64,000 bases of DNA from Catellatospora bangladeshensis (GTDB taxonomy: Bacteria > Actinomycetota > Actinomycetes > Mycobacteriales > Micromonosporaceae). Shown piece by piece: positions 10,866-41,772 of the stretch. Each line of letters starts with the position of its first letter. Within the stretch, counting starts at the first letter, position 1. Where the stretch lies: assembly GCF_016862575.1 (NCBI RefSeq), contig NZ_BONF01000020.1:1-64000 (forward strand). The letters are read 5' to 3'. The notes beneath the pieces are model-generated. The model ran no database searches. It was not told the DNA's origin and saw nothing but the letters and a program-made list of their open reading frames with translations. Position numbers and translations under genes: made by a program.

Positions 10866-10926
10866 GATCGCGAGTTCGTGTCCAAACCTGAGGTCAGGCT
10901 GCACTTCTGGACACGAAACCGCGATC
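10866..10926 (+). repeat. 61-bp intergenic palindromic repeat, family II, copy 1
   Basis: It begins GATCGC and ends GCGATC, with inner arms TTCGTGTCC and GGACACGAA around a conserved centre (CCTGAGGTCAGGCTGCAC). It has the same length as the copies at 14289 and 41712. The rest of the 10732-10983 gap shows no gene. Confidence 0.85.
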
Positions 10927-10962
10927 ATGACCGCGCCTGCCGTGGCGCGGCCCTCCCCAGGA

Positions 10963-10984
10963 GTTAAGAAGGTGCCCTTCCTTT
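10963..10984. repeat. Palindromic repeat, family I, half copy
   Basis: GTTAAGAAGGTGCCCTTCCT is one hairpin unit of the element at 10030. It touches the stop codon of the lipoprotein gene on the minus strand, so it probably forms the end of that transcript. Confidence 0.75.
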
Positions 10985-11805
10985 CAGCAGGTGGTGGTGG
11001 TCCAGGTGGTGTAGGGGTGCTGCCAGGTGAGGCAGTACGTGGCGAAGGCGGCGCCGGGGTCGGTGGGGACGTCGGCGTTCCAGGGGCGCAGGGGGGCGTC
11101 GGGGGCGGATTTGAGGGCGACGTCGGAGACGGTCAGGGGTGGGATGGTGAGGGCGCCGGGGTGGACGGGGTCGGCGTGGACCTCGACGTACTGCTCGATC
11201 TGGGCCTGGCCGGTGAGCGGGAGCGGGCGGCTGGTGAGCAGGTGCCAGGTGTCGCCCCACCACAGCCAGGCCTGCCAGGCGGGGCTCGCGCCGGTGGACT
11301 CGGTCTGCAGGTGCAGCCACAGCCGGTCGCCCGGCCTGACGTCGTACTGGTCGTAGAAGGCCCACGCGCGGGTCGCCGTGTCGTACGTGTAGACCCGCTG
11401 GCGCCCCGTGCCCGACCAGCCGGTCTCGGTCCAGCCGACCTCCAGCCAGGCCGCGCCGTCGCCGGTCTTGGCCATGAAACGCGCGGCGACGAAGTCGTAC
11501 GTGCCGGGCCGCACCGCCACGTCGCCGACCTCGATCCGCCCGAGCACCCCGGACCAGCGCCCGCGGGTGGTCGCGCCGAGGTGGTGGTAGCCGGGGCTGG
11601 GCACCGCCGCGGTGACGGGCTGCACGACGGTCGCGTGCGAGCGGCACGTGCCGGGTGCGTGCAGGCTGGGCGGGCCGCTGGGCGCGGTGACGGAGGCGGG
11701 ACGCCCAACGGGGCAGTCGGGCATGGCGTCGGCGTGGGCGGGGGCGCAGCCTGCGGTGAGGGCGAGCAGCACGACCGCCGCGAGGCGGGCGAGGCGGGGG
11801 TTCAC
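10984..11805 (-). CDS. Secreted lipoprotein of unknown function
   Basis: A 273-residue protein with an N-terminal signal VNPRLARLAAVVLLALTAGC, where LTAGC is a good lipobox. The mature part is Trp- and Tyr-rich with alternating polar/hydrophobic strands (GDRLWLHLQTES, AWLWWGDTWHLLTSRPL), suggesting a beta-rich extracellular domain. It has few cysteines (ATYCLTWQHP, near the end). I recognise no family. The GTG start at 11805 is chosen because it gives the signal peptide; the binding site is weak. It ends in repeat DNA and is divergent from mqnL. Confidence 0.7.
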   Translation of the reverse strand: MNPRLARLAAVVLLALTAGCAPAHADAMPDCPVGRPASVTAPSGPPSLHAPGTCRSHATVVQPVTAAVPSPGYHHLGATTRGRWSGVLGRIEVGDVAVRPGTYDFVAARFMAKTGDGAAWLEVGWTETGWSGTGRQRVYTYDTATRAWAFYDQYDVRPGDRLWLHLQTESTGASPAWQAWLWWGDTWHLLTSRPLPLTGQAQIEQYVEVHADPVHPGALTIPPLTVSDVALKSAPDAPLRPWNADVPTDPGAAFATYCLTWQHPYTTWTTTTC

Positions 11806-11907
11806 ATCCCGGTCAACCGGCCGCGACGGGCGCGGGTGACGATGCCGTACGCCGCACCGCGTCGCCCCTCCCCGGCGGGGTGACGGCACGGATGCGAGGA
11901 TGCCTGC

Positions 11908-13371
11908 ATGGCGGCACCGCGTTTCCCCTTCGACGACCTGCAGGGCTTCCTCGGCGCGCTGGAGCGGGCCGGCGAGCTGCACCGGGTCAAGGTCCCCGTC
12001 GATCCCACGCTGGAGATCAGCGAGATCGTCACCCGTACGGTGCGGGCCAAGGGCCCCGCGCTGCTGTTCGAGAAGCCGACGCGCGGCATGATGCCGCTGG
12101 CGATCAACATCTTCGGCAGCGACCGCCGGATGGCGATGGCGCTGGGCGTCGACGACTTCGACGAGATCGGTGCGCGCATCGGCGAGCTGGCCAAGCCGGA
12201 GCTGCCGCAGGGCTTCAGCGGCATGATGGACGGCCTCGGCAAGATCATGCAGCTCAAGTCGCTGCCCCCGAAGCGGGTCAAGAGCGCGCCCTGCCAGGAG
12301 GTCGTGCTCAAGGGCGCCGAGGTCGACCTGAACATGCTGCCCGGACTGCAGATGTGGCCGGGGGACGGCGGGATCTACCACAACTACGGGTTGACCCATA
12401 CCAAGCACCCGGAAACCGGGAAGCGCAATCTGGGTCTCTACCGGCTGCAGCAGCACTCGCACAACACGATCGGCATGCACTGGCAGATCCACAAGGACTC
12501 GACGGCGCACCACGCGGTGGCCGAGCGGCGCGGCGAGCGCCTGCCGGTCGCGGTCGCGTTCGGTGCCGACCCGGTGGTGTCCTACTCGGCGAGCGCTCCG
12601 CTGCCCGGTGACATCGACGAGTACCTGTTCGCCGGGTTCCTGCGCGGGGAGCGGGTGGAGCTGGTCGACTGCCTGACCGTGCCGCTGCAGGTGCCCGCCA
12701 ACGCCAACATCATCCTGGAGGGGTGGGTCGAGCCGGGCGAGCGGCTGCCGGAGGGCCCGTTCGGCGACCACACCGGCTTCTACACGCCGGTCGAGCCGTT
12801 CCCGGTGATGCACGTCGAGGCGATCACGATGCGCCGGGACCCGATCTACCACTCGATCATCACGAGCAAGCCGCCGCAGGAGGACGGGCCGATCGGCCGC
12901 GCCACCGAGCGCATCTTCCTGCCGCTCATCAAGATCCTGGTGCCGGACATCGTGGACTACCACATGCCCGAGGCGGGCGTGTTCCACAACTGCCTGGTCG
13001 TCGCGATCAACAAGCGGTACCCGAAGCACGCGCAGAAGGTGATGAGTGCCGTGTGGGGCGCGCACCTGCTCAGCCTCACCAAGCTGATCGTGGTGGTGGA
13101 CGACGACTGCGACCCGCGCGATCTCCAGGAGGTCGCGTTCCGCGCGTTCGGCAACGTCGACTACGCGCACGACCTGGTGCTCACGCAGGGGCCGGTGGAC
13201 CACCTCGACCACGCGTCGTACCAGCAGTTCTGGGGCGGCAAGGCCGGGGTCGACGCCACCCGCAAGCTGCCCACCGAGGGCTACACCCGCGGCTGGCCGG
13301 AGGAGATGCGGATGGCCCCCGAGGTCGTCGCGAAGGTCGACAAGCGGTGGAAGGAGTACGGGTTCAAGTGA
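11908..13371 (+). CDS. mqnL: UbiD-family decarboxylase of the futalosine menaquinone pathway (MqnL)
   Basis: A 487-residue UbiD-type, prenylated-FMN-dependent decarboxylase of full length. The UbiD core is seen in GIYHNYGLTHTKHPETGKRN, LPVAVAFGADPV, EGPFGDHTGFYTPVEPFP and PIYHSIITSKPPQEDGPIGRATE, the last containing part of the catalytic E-x-x-x-R/E network. The VMSAVWGAHLLSLTK block is typical of actinobacterial menaquinone decarboxylases. It overlaps the prenyltransferase gene by four bases and faces the UbiX gene that should supply its cofactor. The role as MqnL follows from this trio and from mqnA, mqnC and mqnE elsewhere in the window. Confidence 0.9.
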   Translation: MAAPRFPFDDLQGFLGALERAGELHRVKVPVDPTLEISEIVTRTVRAKGPALLFEKPTRGMMPLAINIFGSDRRMAMALGVDDFDEIGARIGELAKPELPQGFSGMMDGLGKIMQLKSLPPKRVKSAPCQEVVLKGAEVDLNMLPGLQMWPGDGGIYHNYGLTHTKHPETGKRNLGLYRLQQHSHNTIGMHWQIHKDSTAHHAVAERRGERLPVAVAFGADPVVSYSASAPLPGDIDEYLFAGFLRGERVELVDCLTVPLQVPANANIILEGWVEPGERLPEGPFGDHTGFYTPVEPFPVMHVEAITMRRDPIYHSIITSKPPQEDGPIGRATERIFLPLIKILVPDIVDYHMPEAGVFHNCLVVAINKRYPKHAQKVMSAVWGAHLLSLTKLIVVVDDDCDPRDLQEVAFRAFGNVDYAHDLVLTQGPVDHLDHASYQQFWGGKAGVDATRKLPTEGYTRGWPEEMRMAPEVVAKVDKRWKEYGFK

Positions 13372-14267
13372 GTACCGCCACCGCGGTCCCCGAGCTGGAG
13401 CGGCCGGGGAAGGTCAAGTCGTTCCTCAAGCTGGTCGCGATCGAGCACTCGGTGTTCGCGCTGCCCTTCGCATACCTGTCCGCGCTGGTCGCGATGGACC
13501 GGGAGCTGGGCCGCATCGACTGGCTGACGCTGCTGCTGATCACGGTCGCCATGGTCGGCGCGCGCACGTTCGCCATGGCCGCTAACCGGATCATCGACCG
13601 GCACATCGACGCCCGCAACCCGCGCACCGCCCAGCGAGAGCTGGTCACCGGAGCGGTGAGCGTGCGCACCGCCTGGCTCGGCGCGGCCGTCGCGCTCGTG
13701 GTCTTCATGGGCGCCACGCTGGCCCTCAACCCGCTGTGCGCGCTGCTGGCGCCGCTCGCGGTGGTGCCGCTGGTGCTGTACCCGTACGGCAAGCGCTTCA
13801 CCGACTGGCCGCACGCGATCCTGGCGCTGGCCCAGGCGGTCGGCCCGATCGGGGCGTGGCTCGCGGTCACCGGCACCTTCGCCGGGTCCGGCCCGGCCTG
13901 GCTGCTGGGCCTGGCCGTGGGGCTGTGGATCGGCGGCTTCGACCTGATCTACGCCTGCCAGGACGCCGAGGTCGACCGGCAGATCGGCGTGCGCAGCGTG
14001 CCCGCCCGGTACGGCGTGCGCGCCGCGCTGCTGATCTCGACGCTGACCCACGTGGTGACGTTCGCGCTGTTCGTGTGGTTCGGGATCTGGGTGGGTCTGG
14101 GCTGGCCGTGGTGGATCGGGCTGGCGCTGACCGCGGGGGCGTTCGCCTACCAGCACGTCATCGTGACCCCGACCGACCTTTCCAAGGTCAACCGCGCCTT
14201 CTTCACCGCCAACGGGTTCGTGGGGATCGCGCTGTTCGTCTTCGCGGTGCTCGCGCTGGTGGTCTAG
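13368..14267 (+). CDS. mqnP: UbiA-family prenyltransferase (MqnP)
   Basis: A 299-residue membrane protein with about eight or nine transmembrane segments. The two Asp-rich UbiA motifs are ANRIIDRHIDARNPRT (NxxxDxxxD) and YACQDAEVDRQIGVRSVP (DxxxD), which bind the prenyl diphosphate through Mg2+. It should attach the polyprenyl tail to 1,4-dihydroxy-6-naphthoate or its decarboxylation product. The GTG start lies within the mqnL stop (GTGA), so the pair is translationally coupled. The ORF also contains an early LVAIEHSVFALPFAYL segment characteristic of MqnP-type enzymes. Confidence 0.92.
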   Translation: MSTATAVPELERPGKVKSFLKLVAIEHSVFALPFAYLSALVAMDRELGRIDWLTLLLITVAMVGARTFAMAANRIIDRHIDARNPRTAQRELVTGAVSVRTAWLGAAVALVVFMGATLALNPLCALLAPLAVVPLVLYPYGKRFTDWPHAILALAQAVGPIGAWLAVTGTFAGSGPAWLLGLAVGLWIGGFDLIYACQDAEVDRQIGVRSVPARYGVRAALLISTLTHVVTFALFVWFGIWVGLGWPWWIGLALTAGAFAYQHVIVTPTDLSKVNRAFFTANGFVGIALFVFAVLALVV

Positions 14268-14288
14268 GGGTGGTTGTGCTGGAAGGTT

Positions 14289-14349
14289 GATCGCTGTTTC
14301 GTGTCAGAACCTGTGGTCTGACTGCACTTTCTGACACGAACTCGCGATC
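14289..14349 (+). repeat. 61-bp intergenic palindromic repeat, family II, copy 2
   Basis: Same ends and inner arms as the 10866 copy: GATCGC, TTCGTGTCAGAA, TTCTGACACGAA, GCGATC. It lies between convergent mqnP and the UbiX gene. Confidence 0.85.
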
Positions 14350-14402
14350 ATCGCGCGTGCAGCCGGACCAGCCAGGCTGGCAAGCCGCGCAAAACGGGCG
14401 GG

Positions 14403-15044
14403 TCAGCGGTGGCCGAGGTGGCCGATCCAGCGGGTGAGCAGCGTGTGCGGGACGCCTGCCGCGTCGAGGACCTTGCCCGCGACGAAGTCGATCAGCTGCT
14501 GGGCGGTGGCGTCCGCGCCGGAGCCGTAGAAGCCGGGGCTGGCCGGGAGGACCACCGCCCCGGAGTCGATCAGCTCGACCAGGTGCAGCAGATGGCTGCG
14601 GGTCACCGGGGTCTCCCGCGGCACGATCACCACGGGCCGGCGCTCCTTCAGGTTCACCTCGGCGGCGCGCTGGAGCAGGTCCTTGGACAGGCCGAGGGCG
14701 ATGCCCGCGCAGGCGGCCGTCGAGGCGGGCACGACGATCATGCCCCTGGCCCGGTAGGACCCGCTGCTCGGCCCGGCCGCGAGGTCGCCCGCGGGCCAGT
14801 AGCGCAGGTCGGCGCCGTCGACCGGGACGCCCAGCCAGGCCGCCAGGTCCTCGCGCCAGTGCGCGTCGCGGAACGCCTGCCCGGTCTCGTCGAGGATGGT
14901 CAGCCGCGCCGCCCGGGATACGACCAGGTCGACGGCCTGGCCCGCGTCGCACAGCGCCCGCAGCACCGCGGCGGCGTACGGCGTGCCCGACGCGCCGGAC
15001 ACCCCCAATATCCAGGGAGTACGCGGGGCGTCGGCGGCGGGCAC
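14403..15044 (-). CDS. ubiX: UbiX-family flavin prenyltransferase (MqnM-type)
   Basis: A 213-residue flavoprotein that makes prenylated FMN, the cofactor of UbiD-type decarboxylases. It shows the FMN-binding loop LGVSGASGTPYA near the N-terminus, VVPASTAACAGIALGLSKDLLQRAAEV, the KERRPVVIVPRETP motif and LPASPGFYG. It is convergent with mqnL-mqnP across repeat family II copy 2. In Streptomyces the equivalent three genes also cluster and act in the futalosine pathway. No other UbiX-like gene is present in the window. Confidence 0.94.
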   Translation of the reverse strand: MPAADAPRTPWILGVSGASGTPYAAAVLRALCDAGQAVDLVVSRAARLTILDETGQAFRDAHWREDLAAWLGVPVDGADLRYWPAGDLAAGPSSGSYRARGMIVVPASTAACAGIALGLSKDLLQRAAEVNLKERRPVVIVPRETPVTRSHLLHLVELIDSGAVVLPASPGFYGSGADATAQQLIDFVAGKVLDAAGVPHTLLTRWIGHLGHR

Positions 15045-15100
15045 ACCGAAACACTATCCGGCTGATTGACCGGCCCCGCGCCCGCGCCTAGCCTCGGCGC

Positions 15101-15562
15101 ATGCGAGCCCAGCCCGCCGACGTCCGGATCGCGGTCGAGATCGTCGTCAACCGCCCGGTGGAGCAGGTGTTCGCGTACCTGTCCGATCTGCGGCACGACC
15201 CGCACTGGTGGGGCGGCATCCACTCGTCGCGCCGGATCAGCGGAGACGGTGGCGTGGGCACGGTCTACGAGCTGGACGCGACGCTGCTGCGGGTGCGGCA
15301 CCAGACCACGATCGAGGTGATCGCGCAGGAGCCGCCGCTGCGCCAGACGATCCGGGTGCGCACCGGTCCGCTGCCGTACACGGCCTACTACGAGTGGACC
15401 CCGGAGACGCCCGAGCGGACCAGGTTCCGCCTGGTCGCCGAGATCGTCGCGGCCCGGCCCTGGCGCTGGTTCGGCCCGCTGCTCAGCCCGGTGCTGTCGC
15501 TGCTGGCCCGCCGCTACTTCCGGCGGGTCCCCGCGATCCTGGAGGCCTCGCTGCCGGAGTGA
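15101..15562 (+). CDS. SRPBCC-family (START/polyketide-cyclase-like) protein
   Basis: A 153-residue protein fitting the helix-grip fold: the opening VEIVVNRPVEQVFAYLSDLRHDPHWWGG is the usual SRPBCC start, followed by antiparallel strands with YYEWTPE and a C-terminal amphipathic helix ending in RRYFRRVPAILEASL. Such proteins bind small hydrophobic ligands in the cytoplasm; none can be named. It is divergent from ubiX and ends five bases before the opposing unknown gene. Confidence 0.78.
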   Translation: MRAQPADVRIAVEIVVNRPVEQVFAYLSDLRHDPHWWGGIHSSRRISGDGGVGTVYELDATLLRVRHQTTIEVIAQEPPLRQTIRVRTGPLPYTAYYEWTPETPERTRFRLVAEIVAARPWRWFGPLLSPVLSLLARRYFRRVPAILEASLPE

Positions 15563-15567
15563 CCGGC

Positions 15568-16890
15568 TCAGACGGCGTACTCGCCGAGCGGGTCGGTGTG
15601 CGCGTGCGAGTACATACGCTCGTGGAAGCGGACGAAGCGCTCGACGACGGCGCCCGCCCGGCGGTCCTTCAGCCTGGTGTCGAGCGCGGCGAGGCCGGCC
15701 GCGAGCCGGGCGCTGTGCAGCGCGTACAGGCCGGAGTAGTAGGCGAGGCTGTCCGCCAGCGCGGCCAGGGCGCTGGTCGCGTCGGGGGCCCGGCGGGCGT
15801 GCCACAGGGCGACGTTGGCCTCGCCGTTGAGGATGTCCTTCTGCAGCCGGTTGAAGGTGTGGTCGGGGTCGTCGCCCGCGGCGAGCATCGCGATGGCGTC
15901 CTCGGTGCTCTCCCGGCCGCTGCGCTGGCAGGCCAGGGCGATCCGGTTGAGCAGCGCGCCCTGCTGCACCGGGGGCAGGCGCAGCAGCCGGGTGCCGATG
16001 TCGTTCTGCAGCCGCACCAGCAGCGCGGCGTCGGCGAGCAGGTCGCTGAGGCTGCCGTCGGCCAGCACGGCGCGGTGCGCGGGCACGGGCGCCAGCACGT
16101 CGTTCAGCACGCACACCAGGTAGCCGAGGGTCGGCACGACCAGGATCGTCTGGCCGCCGAGCGCGGCGAGTTCCAGCCGGGACACGTGTTCGGCGCGCAG
16201 GGTGCGCTCGACGGCGCCGTACCGGTCGGCCAGCCCCTGGCGCACCAGCGATCCGGTGGGCAGCCCGGCGACGGTGTCGACCAGGTCCCGGCAGCTCTCC
16301 ACATTGGTGACCAGTGCCGCCCACAGGCCGTACTCGACGTCCAGCAGCAGCGGGGCGGCCCCGCCGACGTGGCGGGTGTACTCCTCGGCCATCCCGGCGA
16401 GCTTGCCGCCCACCAGGCTCTGCTCGAACCGGGACGCGTGCCGGGCGGCCTCCCGCGCGGGCCCGGACAGCAGCAAAACCGCGGGGGTACGCCGGTCCGG
16501 CAGCAGCGCCTGGAGCATGGCCCGGTTGAGCGCGCCGATGAGGTCGCGCCGCCGCTGCCGGGACGGGTCGAGGTCGGGCTGCCCGAGCCCGATGCCGAGG
16601 TCGTCGGAGACCACCTCGAAGACCTGGTAGGCGTTCATGTGCCCGGCGAAGCGGAGCATGGTGGGCCAGTCGTCCTCGTCCACCAGCCCGCTGAGCAGCC
16701 GGGTGTTCATGGTGACGAGCTGGATGACCCCGGTGCTCTGCAGGTACTCGTGGCGGCGGGGGTTCTCCGGGGAGTAGGCCCAGGCGGTGAAGTCGCGGTA
16801 GGGGCCGGCGGGCATGTGCCGCGTGATCGTCTCGGTCAGCGCCGAGCACGTCGCTTCCAGCAGCTGGGCGGCGCGCCGGTTGGTTGGCAT
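15568..16890 (-). CDS. Unrecognised 440-residue, largely alpha-helical protein
   Basis: I do not recognise a family with certainty. The sequence is soluble, Leu/Ala-rich and apparently all helical, with no signal peptide or membrane segment. Two acidic stretches, EVVSDDLGIG and VLNDVLAP...RLQNDIGTRLL, faintly recall the Asp-rich and NDxxS metal sites of class I terpene synthases, but the Glu of a proper NSE motif is missing. The start at ATG 16890 is preferred to a GTG at 16926; neither has an ideal binding site. It lies 180 bases downstream of the BldC-like gene on the same strand and may share its promoter. That gap holds no obvious element. Confidence 0.65.
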   Translation of the reverse strand: MPTNRRAAQLLEATCSALTETITRHMPAGPYRDFTAWAYSPENPRRHEYLQSTGVIQLVTMNTRLLSGLVDEDDWPTMLRFAGHMNAYQVFEVVSDDLGIGLGQPDLDPSRQRRRDLIGALNRAMLQALLPDRRTPAVLLLSGPAREAARHASRFEQSLVGGKLAGMAEEYTRHVGGAAPLLLDVEYGLWAALVTNVESCRDLVDTVAGLPTGSLVRQGLADRYGAVERTLRAEHVSRLELAALGGQTILVVPTLGYLVCVLNDVLAPVPAHRAVLADGSLSDLLADAALLVRLQNDIGTRLLRLPPVQQGALLNRIALACQRSGRESTEDAIAMLAAGDDPDHTFNRLQKDILNGEANVALWHARRAPDATSALAALADSLAYYSGLYALHSARLAAGLAALDTRLKDRRAGAVVERFVRFHERMYSHAHTDPLGEYAV

Positions 16891-17070
16891 GCGGGCGACT
16901 CGTTCCTCGGGTCCGGCACGGGCCACGCGGGTCGGTGGCCCGTGGGGCGGAACCCGGCGCGTCTCGCGGGTGCCGTGTTCCGGGGCGCCGGGTCAGCGCC
17001 GCTGATGAGGGTACGACCTACGCGGCCGTCGTGTCGTACCGCTCACCGCATCGTCCTGCTTGGACGGTCG

Positions 17071-17346
17071 TCAGTATCCTCCCGGTCGGCTGCCGGCCGC
17101 CCGCGGTGCCGCGCTCGGGCCCGGCTGGGCCGCGGGGGCGGGGCCGCCCGGCGGGTTGTCCTCGTCGAACTCGCCCTCACCCTCCAGCAGCGCCCGCACC
17201 TCCGACTCCCGGAACCGGCGGTGGCCGCCGGGCGTGCGGATGCTGCCGATGCGACCGGCCGCTGCCCACCTGGTCACCGTCTTGGGGTCGACCCGGAACA
17301 GCGCGGCCACCTCGCCAGGTGTCAACAGGCGATCTCCTGTGTCCAC
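17071..17346 (-). CDS. BldC-like MerR-type DNA-binding protein
   Basis: A 91-residue regulator. Residues about 7-57 form a single winged-helix MerR-type domain, LLTPGEVAALFRVDPKTVTRWAAAGRI...GGHRRFRESEVRALL, very close to Streptomyces BldC, a developmental regulator that binds DNA in head-to-tail arrays. A disordered Pro/Ala/Gly tail follows. The GTG at 17346 is chosen because AAGGAGG precedes it by six bases; the longer frame to 17418 has no such site. It is divergent from the Lrp-type gene. Whether it is the BldC orthologue or a paralogue cannot be settled here. Confidence 0.87.
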   Translation of the reverse strand: MDTGDRLLTPGEVAALFRVDPKTVTRWAAAGRIGSIRTPGGHRRFRESEVRALLEGEGEFDEDNPPGGPAPAAQPGPSAAPRAAGSRPGGY

Positions 17347-17473
17347 GCCCACCTCCTTGCGTCGACGGAGTCGGTTGGGACGAACCCGGTTGCCGCCTCC
17401 GCTGGGACGTACGCCCAATTAGAGCACCTACATGAACAGATGTCCCTAAAATGGTCGTATGCACCTTTTGGGG

Positions 17474-17498
17474 GGTTCGCGGCTGTACGTCGCGAACC
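17474..17498. promoter_or_regulatory. Inverted repeat in the divergent BldC-like / Lrp region
   Basis: GGTTCGCG (17474-17481) and CGCGAACC (17491-17498) are perfect arms around nine bases, 21 bases before the Lrp start at 17520. The position suits an autoregulatory operator of the Lrp-type protein. Confidence 0.4.
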
Positions 17499-17519
17499 TC
17501 ATTCGTATATTGCCCGAAG

Positions 17520-18020
17520 ATGCGCCCCTCCGTGCCCACTCTGGAAGAAACTGCCTCTAAGGTGCTCTGTGTGGACGCGATCGACCGCAACCTGCTTGAC
17601 CTGCTGCGTAACAACGCCCGCCTCTCCTACGCGGAGCTGGCGCGCCAGGTCGGCCTCTCCGCGCCCGCGGTGCACGACCGCGTCGGCAAGCTGGAGGCGT
17701 CGGGCGTGATCCGGGGCTACCACGCGGATGTGGAGCCCAGCTCCATCGACCTCGGCGTGACCGCGCTGATCGGCATCGTGGCCGATCCCGCCGTGGACAT
17801 GGAGGACGTCAGCGCGGCGCTCACCGAGCTGGACGAGATCGAGTCCTGCTACTTCATGGCCGGCGAGGAGTCGTATCTGGTGAAGGCCCGCGTGGGCACC
17901 ATCGCGGAGCTGGAGCAGCTCATCGTGCGGTTGTCGCGCACCCGCGGGGTGGCCCGCACCCGCACCGCGATCGCGCTGTCCACCACCTTCGAAGGCAGGC
18001 CCAGGCCGCTGCTCGGCTGA
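17520..18020 (+). CDS. Lrp/AsnC-family transcriptional regulator
   Basis: A 166-residue protein. An N-terminal helix-turn-helix (IDRNLLDLLRNNARLSYAELARQVGLSAPAVHDRVGKLEASGVIRGY) is followed by an AsnC ligand-binding domain with the beta-alpha-beta fold (VTALIGIVADP..., ESCYFMAGEESYLVKARV). Such regulators sense amino acids as octamers. The start at ATG 17520 is tentative; GTG 17571 is an alternative closer to the domain. Its stop is 18 bases before the PLP enzyme gene on the same strand, so the two probably form one unit and the enzyme's substrate is the likely effector. Confidence 0.9.
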   Translation: MRPSVPTLEETASKVLCVDAIDRNLLDLLRNNARLSYAELARQVGLSAPAVHDRVGKLEASGVIRGYHADVEPSSIDLGVTALIGIVADPAVDMEDVSAALTELDEIESCYFMAGEESYLVKARVGTIAELEQLIVRLSRTRGVARTRTAIALSTTFEGRPRPLLG

Positions 18021-18038
18021 ACCTGTTACGGTCCGCTC

Positions 18039-19130
18039 ATGGAGCAGCTGGACAGGTGTTGTGACGACGACCGGGCATGGGTGACCGAGGCGATCGGCAA
18101 GGTCGCCGCCGACGCCAACCGCAGCGCGGACACGCACCTGCTGCCGTTCCCGCTGCCGGAGGCCTGGGGCGTCGACCTCTACCTGAAGGACGAGTCGGTG
18201 CACCCCACCGGATCGCTGAAGCACCGGCTGGCCCGTTCGCTGTTCCTGTACGCGCTGTGCAACGGCTGGATCCGCCCCGGCACCACCATCGTGGAGGCCT
18301 CGTCCGGCTCCACGGCCGTCTCCGAGGCGTACTTCGCGCGCATGCTGGGGCTGCCGTTCATCGCGGTGATGCCGGCCTCCACCAGCAAGGAGAAGATCGA
18401 GCTGATCGAGTTCCAGGGCGGCGAATGCCACCTGGTGAGCGATCCGGCGCAGGTGGTCGTCGAGGCGCGCTGGCTGGCCGAGGACCGCCGCGGGCACTTC
18501 ATGGACCAGTTCACCTACGCCGAGCGGGCCACGGACTGGCGCGGCAACAACAACATCGCCGAGTCGATCTTCCAGCAGATGTCGCAGGAGCGGCACCCGG
18601 TGCCGGCATGGATCGTGACCGGCGCGGGCACCGGCGGCACCTCCGCCACCATCGGCCGCTACGTCCGCTACCAGCGGCACTGCACGAAGATCCTGGTGGT
18701 GGACCCGGAGAACTCCGCCTTCTACCCGGCGTACGAGACCGGCGACTGGTCGGTGACCACCGGCAAGGGCTCGCGCATCGAGGGCATCGGGCGGCCCCGG
18801 GTCGAGGCGTCGTTCCAGCCCGACATCGTGGACCGCATGGTGCGGGTGCCCGACGCGGGCTCGCTGGCCGCGATGCGGGTCGCCTCCGAGGTGCTGGGCC
18901 GCCGGGTGGGCGGCTCCACCGGCACCAACCTCTGGGGCGCCTTCGGCCTCATCGCCGGTATGCGCGAACGGGGCGAGACCGGATCCGTGGTGACCCTGCT
19001 CTGCGACGGCGGCGAGCGCTACGTGCACACGTACTACGACGACGCCTGGCTGGCCGACCAGCACCTGGACCTCACCGGCCCGCTCACCACGGTCCGGCAG
19101 TTCCTCCAGACCGGCACCTGGCAGGACTGA
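18039..19130 (+). CDS. PLP-dependent cysteine synthase-fold enzyme, probable cysteine desulfhydrase (Cds1-like)
   Basis: A 363-residue fold-type II PLP enzyme. The PLP lysine is about K61 in [11 protein letters not shown], the substrate loop is [15 protein letters not shown], and the phosphate-binding loop is [16 protein letters not shown]. It is longer than CysK and resembles mycobacterial Cds1, which releases H2S from L-cysteine, more than biosynthetic synthases. Pairing with an upstream Lrp/AsnC regulator parallels cysteine-responsive catabolic modules in other bacteria. Desulfhydrase activity is inference; O-acyl-serine sulfhydrylase remains possible. Confidence 0.8.
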
Positions 19131-19140
19131 CCGCCGCCAC

Positions 19141-19182
19141 GTCACATCAGCTGGGTTGTAGCTACAACCCAGCTGATGTGAC
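19141..19182. repeat. Perfect 42-bp palindrome
   Basis: Two exact 21-base arms with no spacer, beginning GTCACATCAGCTGGG and meeting at TAG|CTA. It starts 10 bases after the stop of the 18039 gene. A second perfect palindrome, GGTTGCCATGGCAACC, follows at 19202-19217. Confidence 0.9.
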
Positions 19183-19297: not shown

Positions 19298-19308
19298 ATG
19301 TCGTCAGA

Positions 19309-27644: not shown

Positions 27645-27645
27645 G

Positions 27646-32944: not shown

Positions 32945-34430
<1,486 letters not shown>

Positions 34431-34444
34431 ATCCGAGCTGTAGG

Positions 34445-35389
34445 TCAGATCAGCTGGGTCTTCGACCGTAGCTGGGTGGCCACCGACTTCGCGATCTCGG
34501 CGCCGTGGCTCCAGCTCGGGCTGGTGATCTTCCAGCGGGTCAGCACCGCCATGGTCCAGGTGTCGCCCAGCGCCAGGCAGTTGACGTTCCACTCCCTGGT
34601 GGCCTGCCGGTCCACCCAGCCGTTCTTGATGGCGATGCTCGACTGCTGGTTGCTGGGCCAGGCCTTACGGATGCCGAAGTCGCCGGTGCCGCGTACCGCC
34701 TGCATCTCGCCGACGAGGTAGTCGGTCCAGCGGGGGCCCGCCGCCGCGCCGCTGCCGATGGCGTGCGCGATGCGGCAGGTGTCGCGAGCGGACAGCCGGG
34801 TGGTGCTCCAGCCGTCGCCGGCCCTGGAGTCGGTCAGCTTGCAGATCGAGATCATCCGGGAGATGGTCGCCGACTTGCCCAACTCCGCCCAGAGTGTGGA
34901 GGCGGGCCCGTTGGCGCTGTCGCGGATCATCGTGCGGATCTCGTTCATCCGCGTCGAGCTGGGCGTCTGGCCGTTGTCGGCGGCGCGGCGCAGGTAGTCG
35001 GCGGCGAGCCAGGCCTTGATCATCGAGGCGGTCATGTTCGTCTGGTTCCAGTTCTTGGACCCGACGATGGTGCCGGTCTTGCGGTCCATCAGCGCCCAGC
35101 TGTACCAGGCGCTGGTGTTGACCTTGACCAGCTCGGCCGCGTTGCCCGACTCCAGCAGGTCGGCGTGCTCGACGCCGGGCGGGCCCGGCTGGATGGGGAT
35201 GGCCCGCGAGGCGGGCGAGGTCGAGGGCGCGGGCGTCGCGCTCGGCGCCGGGCTGGGCTCGCGCCAGGCGTGCTGGACGGGGACGCCGTTGTCGCGGTTG
35301 GCCAACCAGATGCCTCCGGTGGTCATGGCGGCGGCGAGGCCGGCCCCGCCGGCCAGCAGTGCGCGCCGTCGGGTGAGCAGCTCTTTCAT
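34445..35389 (-). CDS. Secreted SxxK serine hydrolase (class A beta-lactamase/PBP-like), paralogue 1
   Basis: A 314-residue exported protein. RRRALLAGGAGLAAAMTTGGIWLA is a signal or anchor with an RR pair, followed by a Pro/Ser/Thr-rich linker. The catalytic domain has SMIK (S122, K125) as SxxK, DSANGPAS at the SxN position and IKNGW in place of KTG. It should form a serine acyl-enzyme, possibly on peptidoglycan; a true beta-lactamase is not implied. The start is MKELL at 35389. It lies 45 bases downstream of a close paralogue on the same strand. Confidence 0.82.
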   Translation of the reverse strand: MKELLTRRRALLAGGAGLAAAMTTGGIWLANRDNGVPVQHAWREPSPAPSATPAPSTSPASRAIPIQPGPPGVEHADLLESGNAAELVKVNTSAWYSWALMDRKTGTIVGSKNWNQTNMTASMIKAWLAADYLRRAADNGQTPSSTRMNEIRTMIRDSANGPASTLWAELGKSATISRMISICKLTDSRAGDGWSTTRLSARDTCRIAHAIGSGAAAGPRWTDYLVGEMQAVRGTGDFGIRKAWPSNQQSSIAIKNGWVDRQATREWNVNCLALGDTWTMAVLTRWKITSPSWSHGAEIAKSVATQLRSKTQLI

Positions 35390-35434
35390 GAGGGGGACTC
35401 CGGGGGGAGGAGGGGTCACGGAGTATGTCGTCGG

Positions 35435-36448
35435 TCAGGCGCCAGGTGGCGTCACCAACTGCCGCGCCACGCCGGCGCAGACGTCGGCCCCGTACTGCAG
35501 GCCGTTCTCGACGGGGTAACGGGTCATCACGGTCATGATCCAGTCATCGCTGATGGCCAGACAGTTCAGGTGCCAGTTGCTGTCGGCGCCGATCGCGGTC
35601 CAGCCGTTCTTGATGGCGAGGGTGCGGGAAACGGGGTCCGGTACGCCGTCGATGATGCCCCATCTGCCGCCGCCTGTGGTGGGGAACTGTTCCTCGGCGG
35701 CGGTCGAGCCGGACACCTGGCGCATCTCGGACATGACCCAGTCGGTCCAGCGCGGGCCCGCCGCGGTGCCGTCGGCGACGCACTGGGCGAGCCGGACCGC
35801 GTCCCGCGGGGACATCTGGGTGCGGCTCCACCACTGGTCGTAGAGGCTGGTGTCGGTCAGCCCGCACATGTCGATCATGCGCTGGACCACGTCGTTGCCG
35901 CCGCCGGCCAGGTAGAGGGCCTGGGCGGCGCGGTCGTCGGAGTGCCGGATGGCCGCGCTCGCCTGTTCGAGCCGTTCCTGGCCGACGGTCTGCCCGGACT
36001 CGGCGGCCCGCCGCAGGAAGTCCGCGACCAGCCATACCTTGATCATCGACTCGGTGCTGCTGGTCTGCGTCGCGTTGCGGGACGCGATCAGCTCGCCGGT
36101 GTGCCGGTCGAGCATGGCGTAGCCGATGAAGTCGCCGGTGAAGTTCAGGTTGACCCGGCCCGCGACCAGTGAACGGCTGGGCTGGCGGGCGGCCTCGGCC
36201 CGCGCGTCCTGCTTCGCGGGCGCCTTCGCGGCGGCGGGCGACGGGACGCTCGCCGGGCTGGGGGTGACGGCGGCGGCCGACGGTTCGGGCGTGGCGCCCG
36301 CGTTCGCGTTCACCTGGACATTCTGCTGCGAGTCGGTGACGGTCCGCTCGCCCGCGACCCGGTCCACGGCGGCAGGGGCCAGCAGGGCGAGGACCAGAAC
36401 GCCGAGCGCGGTCGTCGCGGCGGTGCTGAAGGTACGGCGGCGCTGCAT
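35435..36448 (-). CDS. Secreted SxxK serine hydrolase, paralogue 2
   Basis: A 337-residue protein with the same plan as its downstream neighbour: an N-terminal hydrophobic segment, an Ala/Pro-rich linker to about residue 90, then a domain with SMIK (S134, K137), RHSDDRAAQ at the SxN position and IKNGW for KTG. Shared blocks such as GPRWTDW and WxxNCLA show tandem duplication followed by divergence. It is the first gene of the pair and is divergent from paaA across 224 bases. Confidence 0.82.
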   Translation of the reverse strand: MQRRRTFSTAATTALGVLVLALLAPAAVDRVAGERTVTDSQQNVQVNANAGATPEPSAAAVTPSPASVPSPAAAKAPAKQDARAEAARQPSRSLVAGRVNLNFTGDFIGYAMLDRHTGELIASRNATQTSSTESMIKVWLVADFLRRAAESGQTVGQERLEQASAAIRHSDDRAAQALYLAGGGNDVVQRMIDMCGLTDTSLYDQWWSRTQMSPRDAVRLAQCVADGTAAGPRWTDWVMSEMRQVSGSTAAEEQFPTTGGGRWGIIDGVPDPVSRTLAIKNGWTAIGADSNWHLNCLAISDDWIMTVMTRYPVENGLQYGADVCAGVARQLVTPPGA

Positions 36449-36585
36449 GGAGGGGGTGCTCCCGGTGACGTCATTGTCGTGGGTTCGCCCGGATATGGGG
36501 TGGTCCGGGTTGGCCGCAACGGTAGGTCGTACCGCTGCGAGCTGCCATTTCCGAGTCTTGCTCGCGCTCAGCTCCCCGGCCAGAA

Positions 36586-36599
36586 GTGACGCAGGTCAC
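36586..36599. promoter_or_regulatory. Inverted repeat upstream of paaA
   Basis: GTGAC-GCAG-GTCAC is a perfect palindrome with a four-base spacer, 74 bases before the paaA start. It is a plausible operator for the paa operon; no PaaX/PaaR gene is in the window. Confidence 0.35.
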
Positions 36600-36672
36600 G
36601 TGCGTGGACGCCGGGGCGGGCTCGTTGTGACAGTTCTTGCGCCGATCGGAGCAGAGCTGTAACACTGGCCGC

Positions 36673-37694
<1,022 letters not shown>

Positions 37695-37698
<4 letters not shown>

Positions 37699-37976
37699 GC
37701 AACGAGCCCCTGTGGGAGGTGTTCGTCCGGCCCCGGCGCGGGCTGGCGCACACGCACGCCGGCAGCCTGCACGCGCCGGACGCGGGCATGGCCCTGCGGC
37801 ACGCGCGTGACCTCTACACCCGCCGCCAGGAGGGCGTCTCCATCTGGGTGGTGCCCGCCGCCGAGATCACCGCGTCGAGCCCGGACGAGAAGGACTCCTT
37901 CTTCGACCCGGCCGCCGACAAGATCTATCGCCACCCCACCTTCTACGAGCTGCCGGAGGGGGTGGAACACCTGTGA
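37695..37976 (+). CDS. paaB: 1,2-phenylacetyl-CoA epoxidase subunit PaaB
   Basis: A 93-residue small structural subunit, normal size. [42 protein letters not shown] and [13 protein letters not shown] are typical PaaB segments. It bridges PaaA-PaaC units in the complex. The start overlaps paaA and the stop overlaps paaC by four bases each, which should keep subunit amounts balanced. Confidence 0.95.
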
Positions 37977-38653
37977 GCGAGCTGCTTGCGCTCGGCGACG
38001 ACGCGCTGATCGCGGCCCAAAGGCTGAGCGAGTGGGTCTCCCGCGCGCCCACCCTGGAGGAGGACGTGGCGCTGGCCAACATCGCGCTCGACCAGCTCGG
38101 CGCGGCCCGGCTGCTGCTGTCCACCGCCGGTGACGAGGACGAGCTGGCCTACCTGCGCGACGGCCCCCAGTTCCGCAACTGCCTGCTGGCCGAGCTGCCG
38201 CTCGGCCCCGCCCGGGGCGACCTGGACTTCGCCTGGACCATGGCTTGGCTGCTCCTGCTGTCGTCAGCCCAGCTGCTGCGCTACACCGACCTCGCGGCGA
38301 GCGACGACGAACTCGCCGCGGGCATCGGCGCGAAGACCGTCAAGGAGTCGACCTACCACCTCGACCACGCCCACCAGTGGACGCTGCGCCTGGGCGGCGG
38401 CACCGACGAGTCGCACCGCCGCGTCCAGGAGGCCCTGGACAGCCTGTGGCCGTACGCGCACGAACTCACCGAGGGCATCCGGGACCGCTGGCTGGCCCTG
38501 GTCGAGCCGATCCTCGCCGAGGCCGGCCTGACCCGCCCCGCCGACCGCTGGCAGCCCGAGGGAGGCCGCACCGGCCGCCACACCGAACACCTCGGCTACC
38601 TGCTCGCCGAGATGCAGTCCCTGCACCGCGCCCACCCCGGAGCCCAGTGGTGA
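37973..38653 (+). CDS. paaC: 1,2-phenylacetyl-CoA epoxidase subunit PaaC
   Basis: A 226-residue structural partner of PaaA with a ferritin-like helical fold lacking most iron ligands. Key segments are QRLSEWVSRAPTLEEDVALANIALDQLGAARLLL, FAWTMAWLLLLSSAQLL and KESTYHLDHAHQWTLRLGGGTDESHRR. It is slightly shorter than many PaaC proteins. The GTG start overlaps paaB. An 87-bp palindromic repeat separates it from paaD. Confidence 0.94.
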   Translation: MSELLALGDDALIAAQRLSEWVSRAPTLEEDVALANIALDQLGAARLLLSTAGDEDELAYLRDGPQFRNCLLAELPLGPARGDLDFAWTMAWLLLLSSAQLLRYTDLAASDDELAAGIGAKTVKESTYHLDHAHQWTLRLGGGTDESHRRVQEALDSLWPYAHELTEGIRDRWLALVEPILAEAGLTRPADRWQPEGGRTGRHTEHLGYLLAEMQSLHRAHPGAQW

Positions 38654-38659
38654 CGCCCG

Positions 38660-38746
38660 AAAGGAAGGGCACCTTCGTCGGCTCGCGTCAGCGAGCCGAG
38701 CAGCAGCGCAGCACGCTATGCGTAGAGGAAGGGCACCTTCTTAACG
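38660..38746. repeat. Palindromic repeat, family I, expanded copy inside the paa operon
   Basis: The outer parts match the 10030 copy (GGAAGGGCACCTTC at the left; GCTATGCGTAGAGGAAGGGC then ACCTTCTTAACG at the right). The middle holds about 38 extra bases with a nested hairpin, GGCTCGC-GTCA-GCGAGCC (38680-38697). It lies between co-oriented paaC and paaD, five bases from the paaD GGAGG. Confidence 0.87.
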
Positions 38747-38762
38747 GGAAGGAGGTATGACC

Positions 38763-39263
38763 ATGGAGCTGGCTCACCCCGAGACCGTGCTGCTCGACGA
38801 CCCGGCGCGGGTCGCCGAGATCGCCGGGGCCGTGCCGGATCCCGAGCTGCGCGTGGTGACCATCGGTGAGCTGGGCATCGTGCGCGGCGCCGAGCTGGCC
38901 GAGGACGGCCGCGTCACCGTGACCATCACCCCGACCTACTCCGGCTGCCCGGCGATGGACGCCATCCGCGACGACATCCGATCCGCGCTGGCCGCGGCCG
39001 GGCACCCCGACGTCGAGGTGAAGACCGTGCTCAGCCCGGCCTGGTCTACCGACATGATCACCGAGTCGGGCTGGGCGGCGCTGGAGCGCACCGGCATCGC
39101 CGCGCCGGGCGCGTCAGGCACCCCGGCCTGCCCGCGCTGCGCGCACGGCGGCCAGCCGGTCACGCCGGTGCTGCAGATCAGCCGGTACGCCTCGACGCCG
39201 TGCCAGAGCCTGTGGAGCTGCCGCTCCTGCCTGGAACCCTTCAACGCGATCAAGAAACTGTGA
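38763..39263 (+). CDS. paaD: Phenylacetate degradation protein PaaD (MIP18-type)
   Basis: A 166-residue protein with an N-terminal DUF59/MIP18 domain (VPDPELRVVTIGELGIVRGAEL, ITPTYSGCPAMDAIRDDI) and a C-terminal cysteine-rich end (CPRCAHGG, CQSLWSCRSC), likely a zinc or cluster site. It is thought to help mature the Fe-S/di-iron components of the epoxidase. GGAGG at 38751-38755 is too close to ATG 38757 but seven bases from ATG 38763, which decides the start. Confidence 0.94.
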   Translation: MELAHPETVLLDDPARVAEIAGAVPDPELRVVTIGELGIVRGAELAEDGRVTVTITPTYSGCPAMDAIRDDIRSALAAAGHPDVEVKTVLSPAWSTDMITESGWAALERTGIAAPGASGTPACPRCAHGGQPVTPVLQISRYASTPCQSLWSCRSCLEPFNAIKKL

Positions 39264-39273
39264 GCCCGCCGCT

Positions 39274-40326
39274 GTGAGCACGACCTTCCACGAGCTGACC
39301 GTCGCCGCCGTCGAGCCGCTGACCCCGTCCGCGGTGGCGCTGACCTTCGCCGTCCCCGCCGAGCTGCGGCAGGTCTTCACCTTCCGTCCCGGGCAGCATG
39401 TGACGGTACGCCTCGACGGCGAGCTGCGCCGCTCGTACTCGATCTGCTCCACCCCCGCCGAGCTGCGTGAGCAAGGCATGCTGACGATCGGGGTGAAGCG
39501 GGTGCCGGGCGGGGTCTTCTCCACCCGCGCCCAGGGTCTGGCCCCCGGCGAGACGCTGCCGGTGCTGCCGCCGCTGGGCCGCTTCACCACCGAGCTGGAC
39601 CCGGCCCGCACCCGCCGCTACGGCGCGATCGTGGCCGGCTCCGGGATCACGCCGGTGCTGTCGCTGATCGCCACGGCGCTGGCCGTCGAGCCGGGCAGCA
39701 CGTTCACGGTGATCTGCGGCAACCGCAGCGCGGCCGAGGTGATGTTCGCCGACGCGCTCGCCGACCTGAAGGACCGCTACGGCTCCCGGCTGCAGCTGGT
39801 CCACGTGCTGTCGCGGGAGATGCAGCCCAGCGAGCTGCTGTCCGGCCGGCTCGACGGGCCCCGGGTGACCGCGCTGCTCAAGGAGTTCGAGCTGGCGGCC
39901 GTGGACGAGTGGTTCCTGTGCGGGCCGCTGGGCGTGGTCCGCGCGGCCCGGGACGCGCTGGCCGCGGCGGGCGCGTCGGGCAAGGTGCACGTCGAGCTGT
40001 TCCACGCGGAGGAGCCGCCTGCGCCGCAGGCCGCCGTGGCCGAGGGCGGTGAGGTCGAGGTGTCCATCGTCCTGGACGGACGCTCCACCGACTTCACCAT
40101 GGACCGCGCCGAGCGGGTGCTGGACGCGGCGCTGCGGCACCGCGGCGAGCTGCCGTACGCCTGCAAGGGCGGGGTCTGCTCGACCTGCCGCGCCAAGGTC
40201 GTCTCAGGCTCTGTGCAGATGGCCGCCAACTGGTCCCTGGAGCCCGACGAGCTGGCCGCCGGCTACGTCCTCACCTGCCAGTCCACCCCCACCACCGACA
40301 CCCTCACCCTCGACTTCGACGCCTGA
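39274..40326 (+). CDS. paaE: Phenylacetyl-CoA epoxidase reductase PaaE
   Basis: A 350-residue reductase passing electrons from NADPH through FAD and a 2Fe-2S cluster to the PaaA di-iron site. Order: FAD domain with RRSYSICS, NADP domain with GSGITPVLSLIATAL and CGPLGVVRAARD, then a plant-type ferredoxin domain with CKGGVCSTC and a last Cys in YVLTCQSTP. GTG 39274 is the start. It ends the paaABCDE unit; the CoA ligase and later steps are not in the window. Confidence 0.95.
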   Translation: MSTTFHELTVAAVEPLTPSAVALTFAVPAELRQVFTFRPGQHVTVRLDGELRRSYSICSTPAELREQGMLTIGVKRVPGGVFSTRAQGLAPGETLPVLPPLGRFTTELDPARTRRYGAIVAGSGITPVLSLIATALAVEPGSTFTVICGNRSAAEVMFADALADLKDRYGSRLQLVHVLSREMQPSELLSGRLDGPRVTALLKEFELAAVDEWFLCGPLGVVRAARDALAAAGASGKVHVELFHAEEPPAPQAAVAEGGEVEVSIVLDGRSTDFTMDRAERVLDAALRHRGELPYACKGGVCSTCRAKVVSGSVQMAANWSLEPDELAAGYVLTCQSTPTTDTLTLDFDA

Positions 40327-40351
40327 CCGCCTCCGGGAGCCGGTCGTGGGG

Positions 40352-40413
40352 GTGCAGTTTCGGGGAAACTGCACGATCCCTGGCTCAGGTTCGTGCAGTT
40401 TCCCCGAAACTGC
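40352..40413. repeat. 62-bp intergenic double-hairpin repeat, family III, copy 1
   Basis: GCAGTTTCGGGGAAACTGC and GCAGTTTCCCCGAAACTGC, each a perfect 8-bp stem and reverse complements of each other, are preceded by GT and separated by 20 bases. It has the same length and arms as the copy at 62846. Confidence 0.9.
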
Positions 40414-40501
40414 AGAGTGGCGCACGCGGACGCGGGAGCGGCGGGACGGTGTGACGGACCAGGCGGCCCCGGGGCGGTGGGGACGGGTTAGTCTCGGTGG
40501 C

Positions 40502-41692
40502 GTGAGTGCGAACAGGGAGATCGACAGCATCGTGCAGCGGGCCGCCGACGGCGGCCGGATCAGCGCCGAGGAGGCGCTGCTGCTCTACACCGACGCGCCG
40601 TTCCACGCGCTGGGTGAGGCCGCTGACGCGGTGCGCCGCCGCCGCTACCCGGACGGCGTCGTGACGTACCTGATCGACCGCAACATCAACTACACCAACG
40701 TCTGCGTGACGGCGTGCAAGTTCTGCGCGTTCTACCGCGCGCCCAAGCACGCCGAGGGCTGGGTGCACGACACCGCGGAGATCCTGCGCCGCTGCGGCGA
40801 GGCGGTGGAGCTGGGCGCGACGCAGGTGATGCTGCAGGGCGGCCACCACCCCGAGTTCGGCGTGGAGTACTACGAGAACCTGTTCGCCTCGGTGAAGCAG
40901 GCGTACCCGCAGCTCATGATCCACTCGATCGGGCCCAGCGAGATCCTGCACATGGCCAAGGTCTCCGAGGTGTCCATCGACGAGGCCGTGGCCCGTATCA
41001 AGGCGGCCGGCCTGGACTCGATCGCGGGCGCCGGCGCGGAGATGCTGCCCGACCGGCCGCGTAAGGCGATCGCCCCGCTCAAGGAGTCGGGCGCGCGCTG
41101 GCTGGAGGTCATGGAGGTGGCGCACCGGCACGGCGTCGAGTCCACCGCGACCATGATGATGGGCACCGGCGAGACCAACGCCGAGCGCATCGAGCACCTG
41201 CGCATGATCCGCGACGTGCAGGACCGCACCGGCGGCTTCCGCGCGTTCATCCCGTGGACGTACCAGCCGGAGAACAACCACCTCAAGGGCCGCACCCAGG
41301 CCACGTCGCTGGAGTACCTGCGGCTCATCGCGGTGGCCCGGCTGTTCTTCGACAACGTGGCGCACCTGCAGGCGTCCTGGCTGACCACCGGCAAGGACGT
41401 GGGCCAGCTCGCGCTGCACATGGGCGTGGACGACCTGGGCTCGATCATGCTGGAGGAGAACGTGATCTCCTCGGCGGGCGCCCGGCACCGGTCCAACCTG
41501 CACGACCTGGTCCAGCTCATCCGCACGGCGGGCCGCATCCCGGCCCAGCGCGACACGCTGTACCGCCACCTCAAGGTGCACTGGACCCCCGCCGACGACC
41601 CGACGGACGAGCGCGTCACCTCCCACTTCTCCTCCATCGCCATCGAGGGCGGCGGCGTGGGCAGGCAGCTCCCCCTGGTCGACGCGCGCTGA
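40502..41692 (+). CDS. mqnC: Cyclic dehypoxanthinyl futalosine synthase (radical SAM)
   Basis: A 396-residue radical SAM enzyme that cyclises dehypoxanthinyl futalosine. The cluster motif is CVTACKFC (C68, C72, C75) after LIDRNINYTNV. LGATQVMLQGGHHPEFGVEYYE, IHSIGPSEILHMAKVS, SIAGAGAEMLPDRPRK and TMMMGTGETNAERIEHL are MqnC signatures. The frame is open from 40049, but the GTG at 40502 gives the family N-terminus. It is followed by a family II repeat and preceded by a family III repeat. Confidence 0.95.
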   Translation: MSANREIDSIVQRAADGGRISAEEALLLYTDAPFHALGEAADAVRRRRYPDGVVTYLIDRNINYTNVCVTACKFCAFYRAPKHAEGWVHDTAEILRRCGEAVELGATQVMLQGGHHPEFGVEYYENLFASVKQAYPQLMIHSIGPSEILHMAKVSEVSIDEAVARIKAAGLDSIAGAGAEMLPDRPRKAIAPLKESGARWLEVMEVAHRHGVESTATMMMGTGETNAERIEHLRMIRDVQDRTGGFRAFIPWTYQPENNHLKGRTQATSLEYLRLIAVARLFFDNVAHLQASWLTTGKDVGQLALHMGVDDLGSIMLEENVISSAGARHRSNLHDLVQLIRTAGRIPAQRDTLYRHLKVHWTPADDPTDERVTSHFSSIAIEGGGVGRQLPLVDAR

Positions 41693-41711
41693 GCTTCGCT
41701 CGCGCGGGCTA

Positions 41712-41772
41712 GATCGCCGTTTCGTGTCCAGAAGTGCGCTCAGACCGCAGGTTCTGACACGAAGCAGTGATC
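41712..41772 (-). repeat. 61-bp intergenic palindromic repeat, family II, copy 3 (inverted)
   Basis: Exactly 61 bases, GATCGCC...GTGATC with inner arms TTCGTGTCCAGAA and TTCTGACACGAA. Its reverse complement aligns best with the 14289 copy, so it is in the opposite orientation. The rest of the 41693-41877 gap is promoter-sized and otherwise featureless. Confidence 0.85.

Follow-up and report, generated by a model that had tools for sequence, protein, structure and literature searches.

A family of near-constant-length intergenic palindromes in Catellatospora as candidate two-fold symmetric recognition sites

Palindromes dispersed in bacterial genomes are usually taken for selfish leftovers or for RNA hairpins, and whether such repeats serve the cell is an old question that has now become directly testable: comparison between sister species allows both readings to be tested, and a 61-bp bait sequence is available. 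The question is raised here by three palindromes in a 64,000-nucleotide stretch of DNA from Catellatospora bangladeshensis, a soil actinobacterium not known to have any part in disease (the window), which belongs to contig C20 of a genome of 8.83 Mb in 115 contigs, 99.69% complete (G000). The three lie at 10866-10926, 14289-14349 and 41712-41772, with no strand assigned, and each is indeed 61 bp long, GATC to GATC, as the original prediction had it. The inner arms that they were said to share are also found, namely a 43-bp core, TTCGTGTC-N27-GACACGAA, that is exact in 3 of 3, with 16 arm positions exact in all three. The GATCGC ends hold in general, but the copy at 41712 has GTGATC at one end instead of GCGATC; the centre, described as conserved, is only partly so across copies; and the inverted orientation ascribed to the copy at 41712 has little meaning, since the element is a near-palindrome. 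In the second copy, for example, the outer block GATCGC (14289-14294, mirrored as GCGATC at the other end) is followed by the inner block TTCGTGTC (14298-14305, in the family form YTCNNGTC, mirrored as GACACGAA) and by a middle of 27 bp (14306-14332), near-constant in length and variable in sequence. At up to 3 mismatches the window contains these 3 copies only, while 100 dinucleotide shuffles gave a mean of 0.16 and never reached 3. Together with a reversed-pattern control, which gave 0 places in every genome searched, including the 101 scanned at up to 2 mismatches (11 of the genus and 90 others), this rules out a chance palindrome.

All three copies lie between genes, as had been claimed, when genes are called with our own codon-usage caller; gene positions given here are the calls of this analysis, not annotation, and gene names were read from sequence. 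Copy 1 (core 10875-10917) is found between genes 10099-10731 (-), which we take to be GNAT-like, and 10984-11805 (-), and has a counterpart at the same site in the sister genome, G007. Copy 2 (core 14298-14340) is found between the converging genes 13368-14267 (+) and 14403-15002 (-), presumably UbiA-like and UbiX-like; the best match of the UbiA-like protein, at 93% identity, is from Catellatospora methionotrophica. Copy 3 (core 41721-41763) starts 19 bp past the stop of gene 40502-41692 (+), which we assume to be MqnC-like, and lies upstream of gene 41878-42621 (+). In other words, the cores at 10875 and 41721 sit between tandem genes and the core at 14298 between converging ones.

How widely is this element spread? 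Orthologous sites in other species differ in the middle two letters of the inner block, and for this reason TTCGTGTC was dropped as the defining block and the pattern widened to YTCNNGTC, giving GATC-N5-YTCNNGTC-N27-GACNNGAR-N5-GATC as the general family pattern for fixed-length scans. At up to 2 mismatches the family is present in all 11 Catellatospora genomes, at 19-281 places per genome, a variation of about 15-fold: 281 in G000, 274 in G007, 228 in G001, 157 in G008, 139 in G006, 85 in G002, 76 in G009, 55 in G003, 48 in G010, 31 in G005 and 19 in G004. With 0 mismatches the count is 221 for G000 and 212 for G007, and it ranges over 3-115 across the nine remaining Catellatospora genomes. 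A gap in mismatches sets the copies clearly apart from background in G000 and G007, which is not so in G008. The family is nearly absent outside Catellatospora, with 1-4 places in 4 of 90 genomes at up to 2 mismatches and, at 0 mismatches, 1 place in 1 of 289 other genomes of the same taxonomic family; the exact TTCGTGTC-N27-GACACGAA form occurs in 7 of the 11 genus genomes and in 0 of 90 others. The expectation of a dispersed, high-copy, intergenic palindrome family is thereby borne out, and the statement that it bears no recognised name agrees with the literature matches listed, among which we found neither a name for it nor anything on such repeats in Catellatospora or Micromonosporaceae. 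A phage and a plasmid origin were considered and, as far as these searches reach, set aside: the GT-block pattern has no exact match in viral contigs, and copy 2 has no match in plasmids.

The length of the element is nearly invariant. When middles of 19 to 35 bp were tried over 2.36 Mb of six genomes (up to 2 mismatches of 20), the middle measured 27 bp in 80 of 82 copies and 26 bp in the other 2, with no copy having a middle of 19-25 or 28-35 bp. Nor is this length imposed by the search, since in the own genome the gapped form TTCGTGTC-N15..44-GACACGAA matches at 84 places, as compared with 83 for the form whose middle is set at 27 bp. Two exceptions were met outside the 2.36-Mb scan, a 56-bp copy at site 14298, identical in sequence in G001 and in C. 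methionotrophica, and a G006 copy with a deletion at site 96904. Within each half, the two conserved blocks, GATC and YTCNNGTC, have their centres about 11 bp apart.

The family is over-represented between converging gene pairs. In particular, four stretches of G000 and G007 (1.16 Mb) contain 46 copies, 25 in converging, 15 in tandem and 6 in diverging spacers, and by our own gene calls the converging spacers make up 18,857 of the 106,831 intergenic bases. A non-random sample of 99 distinct copies, mostly from G000 and G007 (drawn from 103, with 4 dropped that had no called gene on one side), is divided into 53 converging, 38 tandem and 8 diverging cases; 96 of the 99 are clear of called genes, the remaining 3 extend more than 5 bp into one, and in 29 of the 38 tandem spacers the copy is nearer the upstream stop. 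Placement counts, like the shared-site counts and the 14 sister pairs below, cover copies with up to 2 mismatches of 16. Along the G007 chromosome the density is 25-41 per Mb up to 1.5 Mb from dnaA, uneven between 1.5 and 3.5 Mb (27, 12, 32 and 12 per Mb among the copies listed) and, at greater distances, about 7 per Mb, as calculated from 194 of the 212 exact copies, the other 18 lying past 7.52 Mb and between 1.4 and 2.5 Mb from dnaA.

Which parts of the element are kept over time? For 22 of the 24 G000 copies on C8 and C20, the orthologous spacer of G007 contains one or more copies; for one (C8:303743) it contains no copy, and the last could not be placed from that side. In the reverse direction, 22 of 22 G007 copies have a G000 counterpart, and clusters of copies differ in number between the two genomes. 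In 14 one-to-one pairs, substitutions amount to 4/168 in GATCGC and 8/224 in TTCGTGTC, as compared with 22/84 in N3, 12/56 in N2, 52/322 in the remaining middle and 293/1979 in the aligned flanks. A set of 17 pairs, which includes the 14 (a partner was present in the G007 DNA examined for 38 of the 74 copies queried, and clusters were excluded), gives 1/136 in GATC, 5/68 in GC, 10/102 in YTC (6 of the 10 at base 1), 0/68 in NN and 1/102 in GTC, with 25/102 in N3, 17/68 in N2 and 74/391 in the middle. The block rates are slightly underestimated, because counting a copy required a near match. Judging from these alignments, the blocks keep their letters and their spacing at the sites they occupy and the bases between them drift, and such fixed key letters amid drift suggest sites that are read by a protein rather than dead remnants of mobile DNA. 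Opposite the unmatched copy at C8:303743, the G007 spacer (C1, about 2181393-2182419) is ~0.8 kb longer and may contain a small two-gene module.

Across the genus, occupancy is less regular. With respect to 8 sites of C20, G006 has copy-like elements at 41721, 95952 and 96904, G008 has two copies at 96904, and G002, of which 80 kb were examined, has copies at 14298 and 41721; the other sites in these three genomes are without a copy, otherwise occupied or not placeable. At site 14298 two other palindrome families are found instead, one in G003 and G006 and one in G004, G008 and G009; the spacer there is 17 bp in G010, and in G005 the two flanking genes are on different contigs. The palindrome that replaces copy 2 between the UbiA-like and UbiX-like genes of G006 and G003 has GCAACTCTTAAAGAGTCGCG-like arms. 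Taken together, the variation in copy number and the sites that are empty or hold another palindrome mean that gain and loss have happened. The comparison of empty sites proposed in the original prediction therefore cuts both ways, with 22 of 24 copies at the same site in the closest relative speaking against movement and the sites empty elsewhere speaking for it. The block letters vary too: at 41721 they are GT in G000 and G007, AG in G006 and GG in G002, with both arms altered. Counted by arm among the first-listed copies, GG or CG lead in G001, G005 and G008, and GT is commonest, mixed with others, in G002, G003, G006 and G010, while the G000 and G007 DNA examined has GT on 92 of 92 arms, with few exceptions in the genome-wide lists. 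Since GT also leads in those four other genomes, the uniform GT of G000 and G007 may represent one successful subfamily.

Neighbouring copies tend to sit whole helical turns apart. The 19 neighbour spacings below 200 bp in G007, taken from 194 of the 212 exact copies, are 83, 94 (three times), 104 (twice), 105 (nine times), 106, 113, 116 and 126 bp, giving R of 0.917 at 10.5 bp, a value that 0 of 20000 uniform draws reached; when spacings of 103-107 bp are removed, 7 values are left and P=0.0014. The period is broad, all values from 10.3 to 11 bp giving R >0.90, the spacings in G000 and G007 are not independent, and the more distant G008 has only two close spacings in the DNA examined, 82 and 126. 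Linkers of 22, 33, 43-45, 54-55 and 65 bp recur, those of 47 and 52 bp do not fit the series, and a remnant copy lies within a linker of 98 bp in G000. Tandem duplication may lie behind part of this phasing, as judged by two adjacent and identical copies on G000:C5, by doublet partners that are more alike than other pairs (0.694 vs 0.609) and by linkers that resemble each other more than shuffled linkers do. Incomplete copies also exist: a half copy at C8:192606 lies beside the full copy C8:192650, and a remnant is present in the 201-kb cluster. A scan of 1.16 Mb from two genomes for half-sites more than 70 bp from any full copy gave, as a raw count, 14 weak matches with 2 mismatches of 14, and the further half-sites turned out to be the two halves of one 60-bp copy.

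The reading that we tentatively favour, while holding it a little short of probable, is that these palindromes are two-fold symmetric, double-stranded recognition sites for a putative multi-subunit DNA-binding complex. It is preferred on account of the in-place conservation of the blocks, the nearly fixed middle, the helical phasing, the lack of an RNA signal and the changes of block letters in both arms together. The protein would recognise the blocks along one helical face, the complex would span both halves at once and could contact the same complex on a neighbouring copy, and its likeliest role would be architectural, as a boundary or anchor at gene ends; the copies themselves would first have been spread by some copying process. 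E. coli BIMEs, mosaics of REP units and linkers for which a role as nucleoid or gyrase sites has been proposed, offer a parallel in this respect, i.e. a proposed architectural role, at the DNA level, of dispersed palindromes at gene ends. That said, the two arms match beyond chance even at variable positions, which a protein ignoring those positions would not need, and the wide range in copy number looks more like amplification than like a fixed function. The half copy and the remnant, as well as the 56-bp copy, are further points against such sites; what is more, the half copy and the copy of 56 bp, together with the mixed, GT-rich block letters of other species, not only lower our confidence in them but also strengthen the case for a mobile element.

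Could the palindromes act in RNA instead, terminating transcription in both directions or protecting RNA 3' ends as hairpins? The excess between converging genes and the nearness to upstream stops in tandem spacers are what one would expect of them, and a hairpin-capable sequence near stop codons does recall an intrinsic terminator, but we consider this improbable. If an RNA hairpin were under selection, G-U should be accepted more readily than A-C on the transcribed strand, yet on the sense strand of the 38 tandem copies G-T mismatches do not exceed A-C (73 vs 75; outer stem 36 vs 41, inner 37 vs 34), and the same is seen in converging copies with the nearer stop taken as sense (26 vs 25), so that no RNA signal is seen. 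A G+C-rich hairpin followed by a U-run, the mark of an intrinsic terminator, is not what copies 1-3 present, there being no U-run at any of them, and scanning 10700-14500 for terminators yielded a single match, at the edge of copy 1, with 0.9 expected. Among converging spacers, 8 of the 21 that contain a copy and 24 of the 94 that do not have a separate short-loop hairpin, meaning that the copies do not replace such hairpins, and 8 of the 99 copies lie between diverging genes. Moreover, a hairpin requires neither a fixed middle nor particular block letters, whereas in this family, unlike in intrinsic terminators, letters and length are conserved without U-run or wobble signal. At the Rfam gathering score, the palindromes have no match in the whole window, the only one being to a cobalamin riboswitch elsewhere (RF00174, 24690-24820, 34.4 bits). 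Still less probable, in our view, is a DNA hairpin or cruciform that is kept as such, with hairpin-templated repair or selection on the structure keeping the arms alike. The agreement of the arms would fit it: in nine species with 287 places, both arms carry identical NN in 78 of the 112 copies listed first, as compared with a within-genome shuffled mean of 42.7 and 0 of 2000 shuffles as high, and agreement beyond chance is also seen at the first base of N3, at N2 and at two positions of the middle, there with copy relatedness uncontrolled. The three window copies also fold well as single-stranded DNA, better than shuffles by z of -4.0 to -5.6, but this is expected of any palindrome. Double changes in the middle between sister genomes are more frequent than expected (13 vs 6.36), but only 1 of the 13 goes from pair to pair and 10 are unpaired before and after; for N3 there are 4 vs 3.06 expected, 2 of them pair to pair, and for N2 4 vs 2.12, 0 pair to pair. 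The variable positions thus appear to show no clear compensation in base pairing, several middle pairs show low pairing, and conservation tracks the sequence blocks.

A real possibility, though one to which we give less than even confidence, is a selfish element akin to REP/REPIN or MITEs, whose transposase has been lost or falls outside Pfam Y1_Tnp and for which the blocks would be sites of recognition and cleavage. High copy number, intergenic habit, restriction to the genus and the 15-fold range all speak for it, as do sites that are filled in some species and empty or otherwise occupied in others, near-identical copies within one genome (a pair in G002, the pair on G000:C5) and the presence alongside it of at least 5 further palindrome families of fixed length; past spread by a mobile process is likely. 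Against it, the RAYT-type transposase that the original prediction suggested looking for did not appear: a PF01797 (Y1_Tnp) search at E<=0.001 found no match in G000 or in four relatives, G004, G006, G008 and G009, among which G006, G008 and G009 are copy-rich (139, 157 and 76). Matches are present in 6 of the 11 genus genomes, including the copy-rich G007 and G001, and a Y1-type transposase does not track copy number. Half-sites bounding a longer element are not seen in the 1.16 Mb scanned, no target-site duplication could be made out at the sites compared, 22 of 24 copies have a counterpart in the sister genome, and blocks that stay fixed there while the rest drifts are unlike decaying remnants. 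MITEs are short, intergenic, bear inverted repeats and lack coding capacity, features which the family shares, its terminal inverted repeats being GATC-N5-YTCNNGTC and its mirror; it differs from them in having a near-invariant middle length, and in the DNA scanned neither a target-site duplication nor a parent transposon bearing the same ends came to light. The terminal GATC is itself palindromic and could belong to element or target, no empty site being resolved to the base; a GATC target shared with two other families, which also run GATC to GATC in the patterns used, was considered, but the 17-bp spacer of G010 at 14298 contains no GATC. As to REP/REPIN, of which GTAG- and CGTC-tagged superfamilies are described, the family resembles them in being palindromic, high-copy and found between tandem and converging genes and downstream of coding regions, in the pairing of oppositely oriented units, in regular spacings in some arrays, and in the spacers of REP dimers, some of which are alike in length and not in sequence, as is the middle here (PMC3733652, PMC3116915). 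In contrast to REP units, which measure 20-40 bp and carry GTAG or CGTC as a tag on one end (PMC3733652, PMC3116915), it is a 61-bp near-complete palindrome with GATC at both ends, inside the palindrome, and no unpaired tag, and it has a near-constant 27-bp middle, blocks conserved in place and no Y1-type match in its own genome. The host, moreover, is actinobacterial, and a term search of PMC3733652 gives no mention of "actinobacteri" or "Streptomyces". As tag, unit length and transposase all fail, the family is not classed as REP/RAYT; it is REP-like in habit and not shown to be REP/RAYT. Of the mobile or structural, REP/MITE-like element originally proposed, the dispersed, intergenic, high-copy habit and the kept blocks and spacing stand, but a RAYT link is not supported, nor is there clear compensation in pairing.

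If the palindromes are indeed recognition sites, one might go further and imagine a chromosome-wide protein-DNA code special to the genus, in which hundreds of symmetric sites in phase with the helix would, throughout a lineage, follow the changing taste of one putative architectural protein, with at least 5 parallel palindrome families and proteins in the same cell. The block letters do vary by lineage, with uniform GT in G000 and G007, GG or CG in G001, G005 and G008 and mixtures elsewhere, but we regard this extension as doubtful. The other families seen in the same DNA are likewise of fixed length. The one with CAGTTTCGGGGAAA arms, at 40353-40414 and 62848-62907 of the window, spans 58 bp from one motif end to the other in each of the 12 pairs found (1.16 Mb), and the one with AAGGGCACCTTC arms, at 10032-10079, measures 42 bp in 27 of the 28 pairs found, with an apparent half copy ending near 10983 that has a longer counterpart in G007. 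In the ranges searched of the G000:C8 and G007 stretches, the GATCTTGCNYGAA family is 67 bp in 27 of 27 and the GATCATGAA family 55 bp in 5 of 5, both GATC to GATC, and the CTTGCCWGGCA family is 55 bp in 16 of 16. The window also contains a perfect 42-bp palindrome at 19141-19182.
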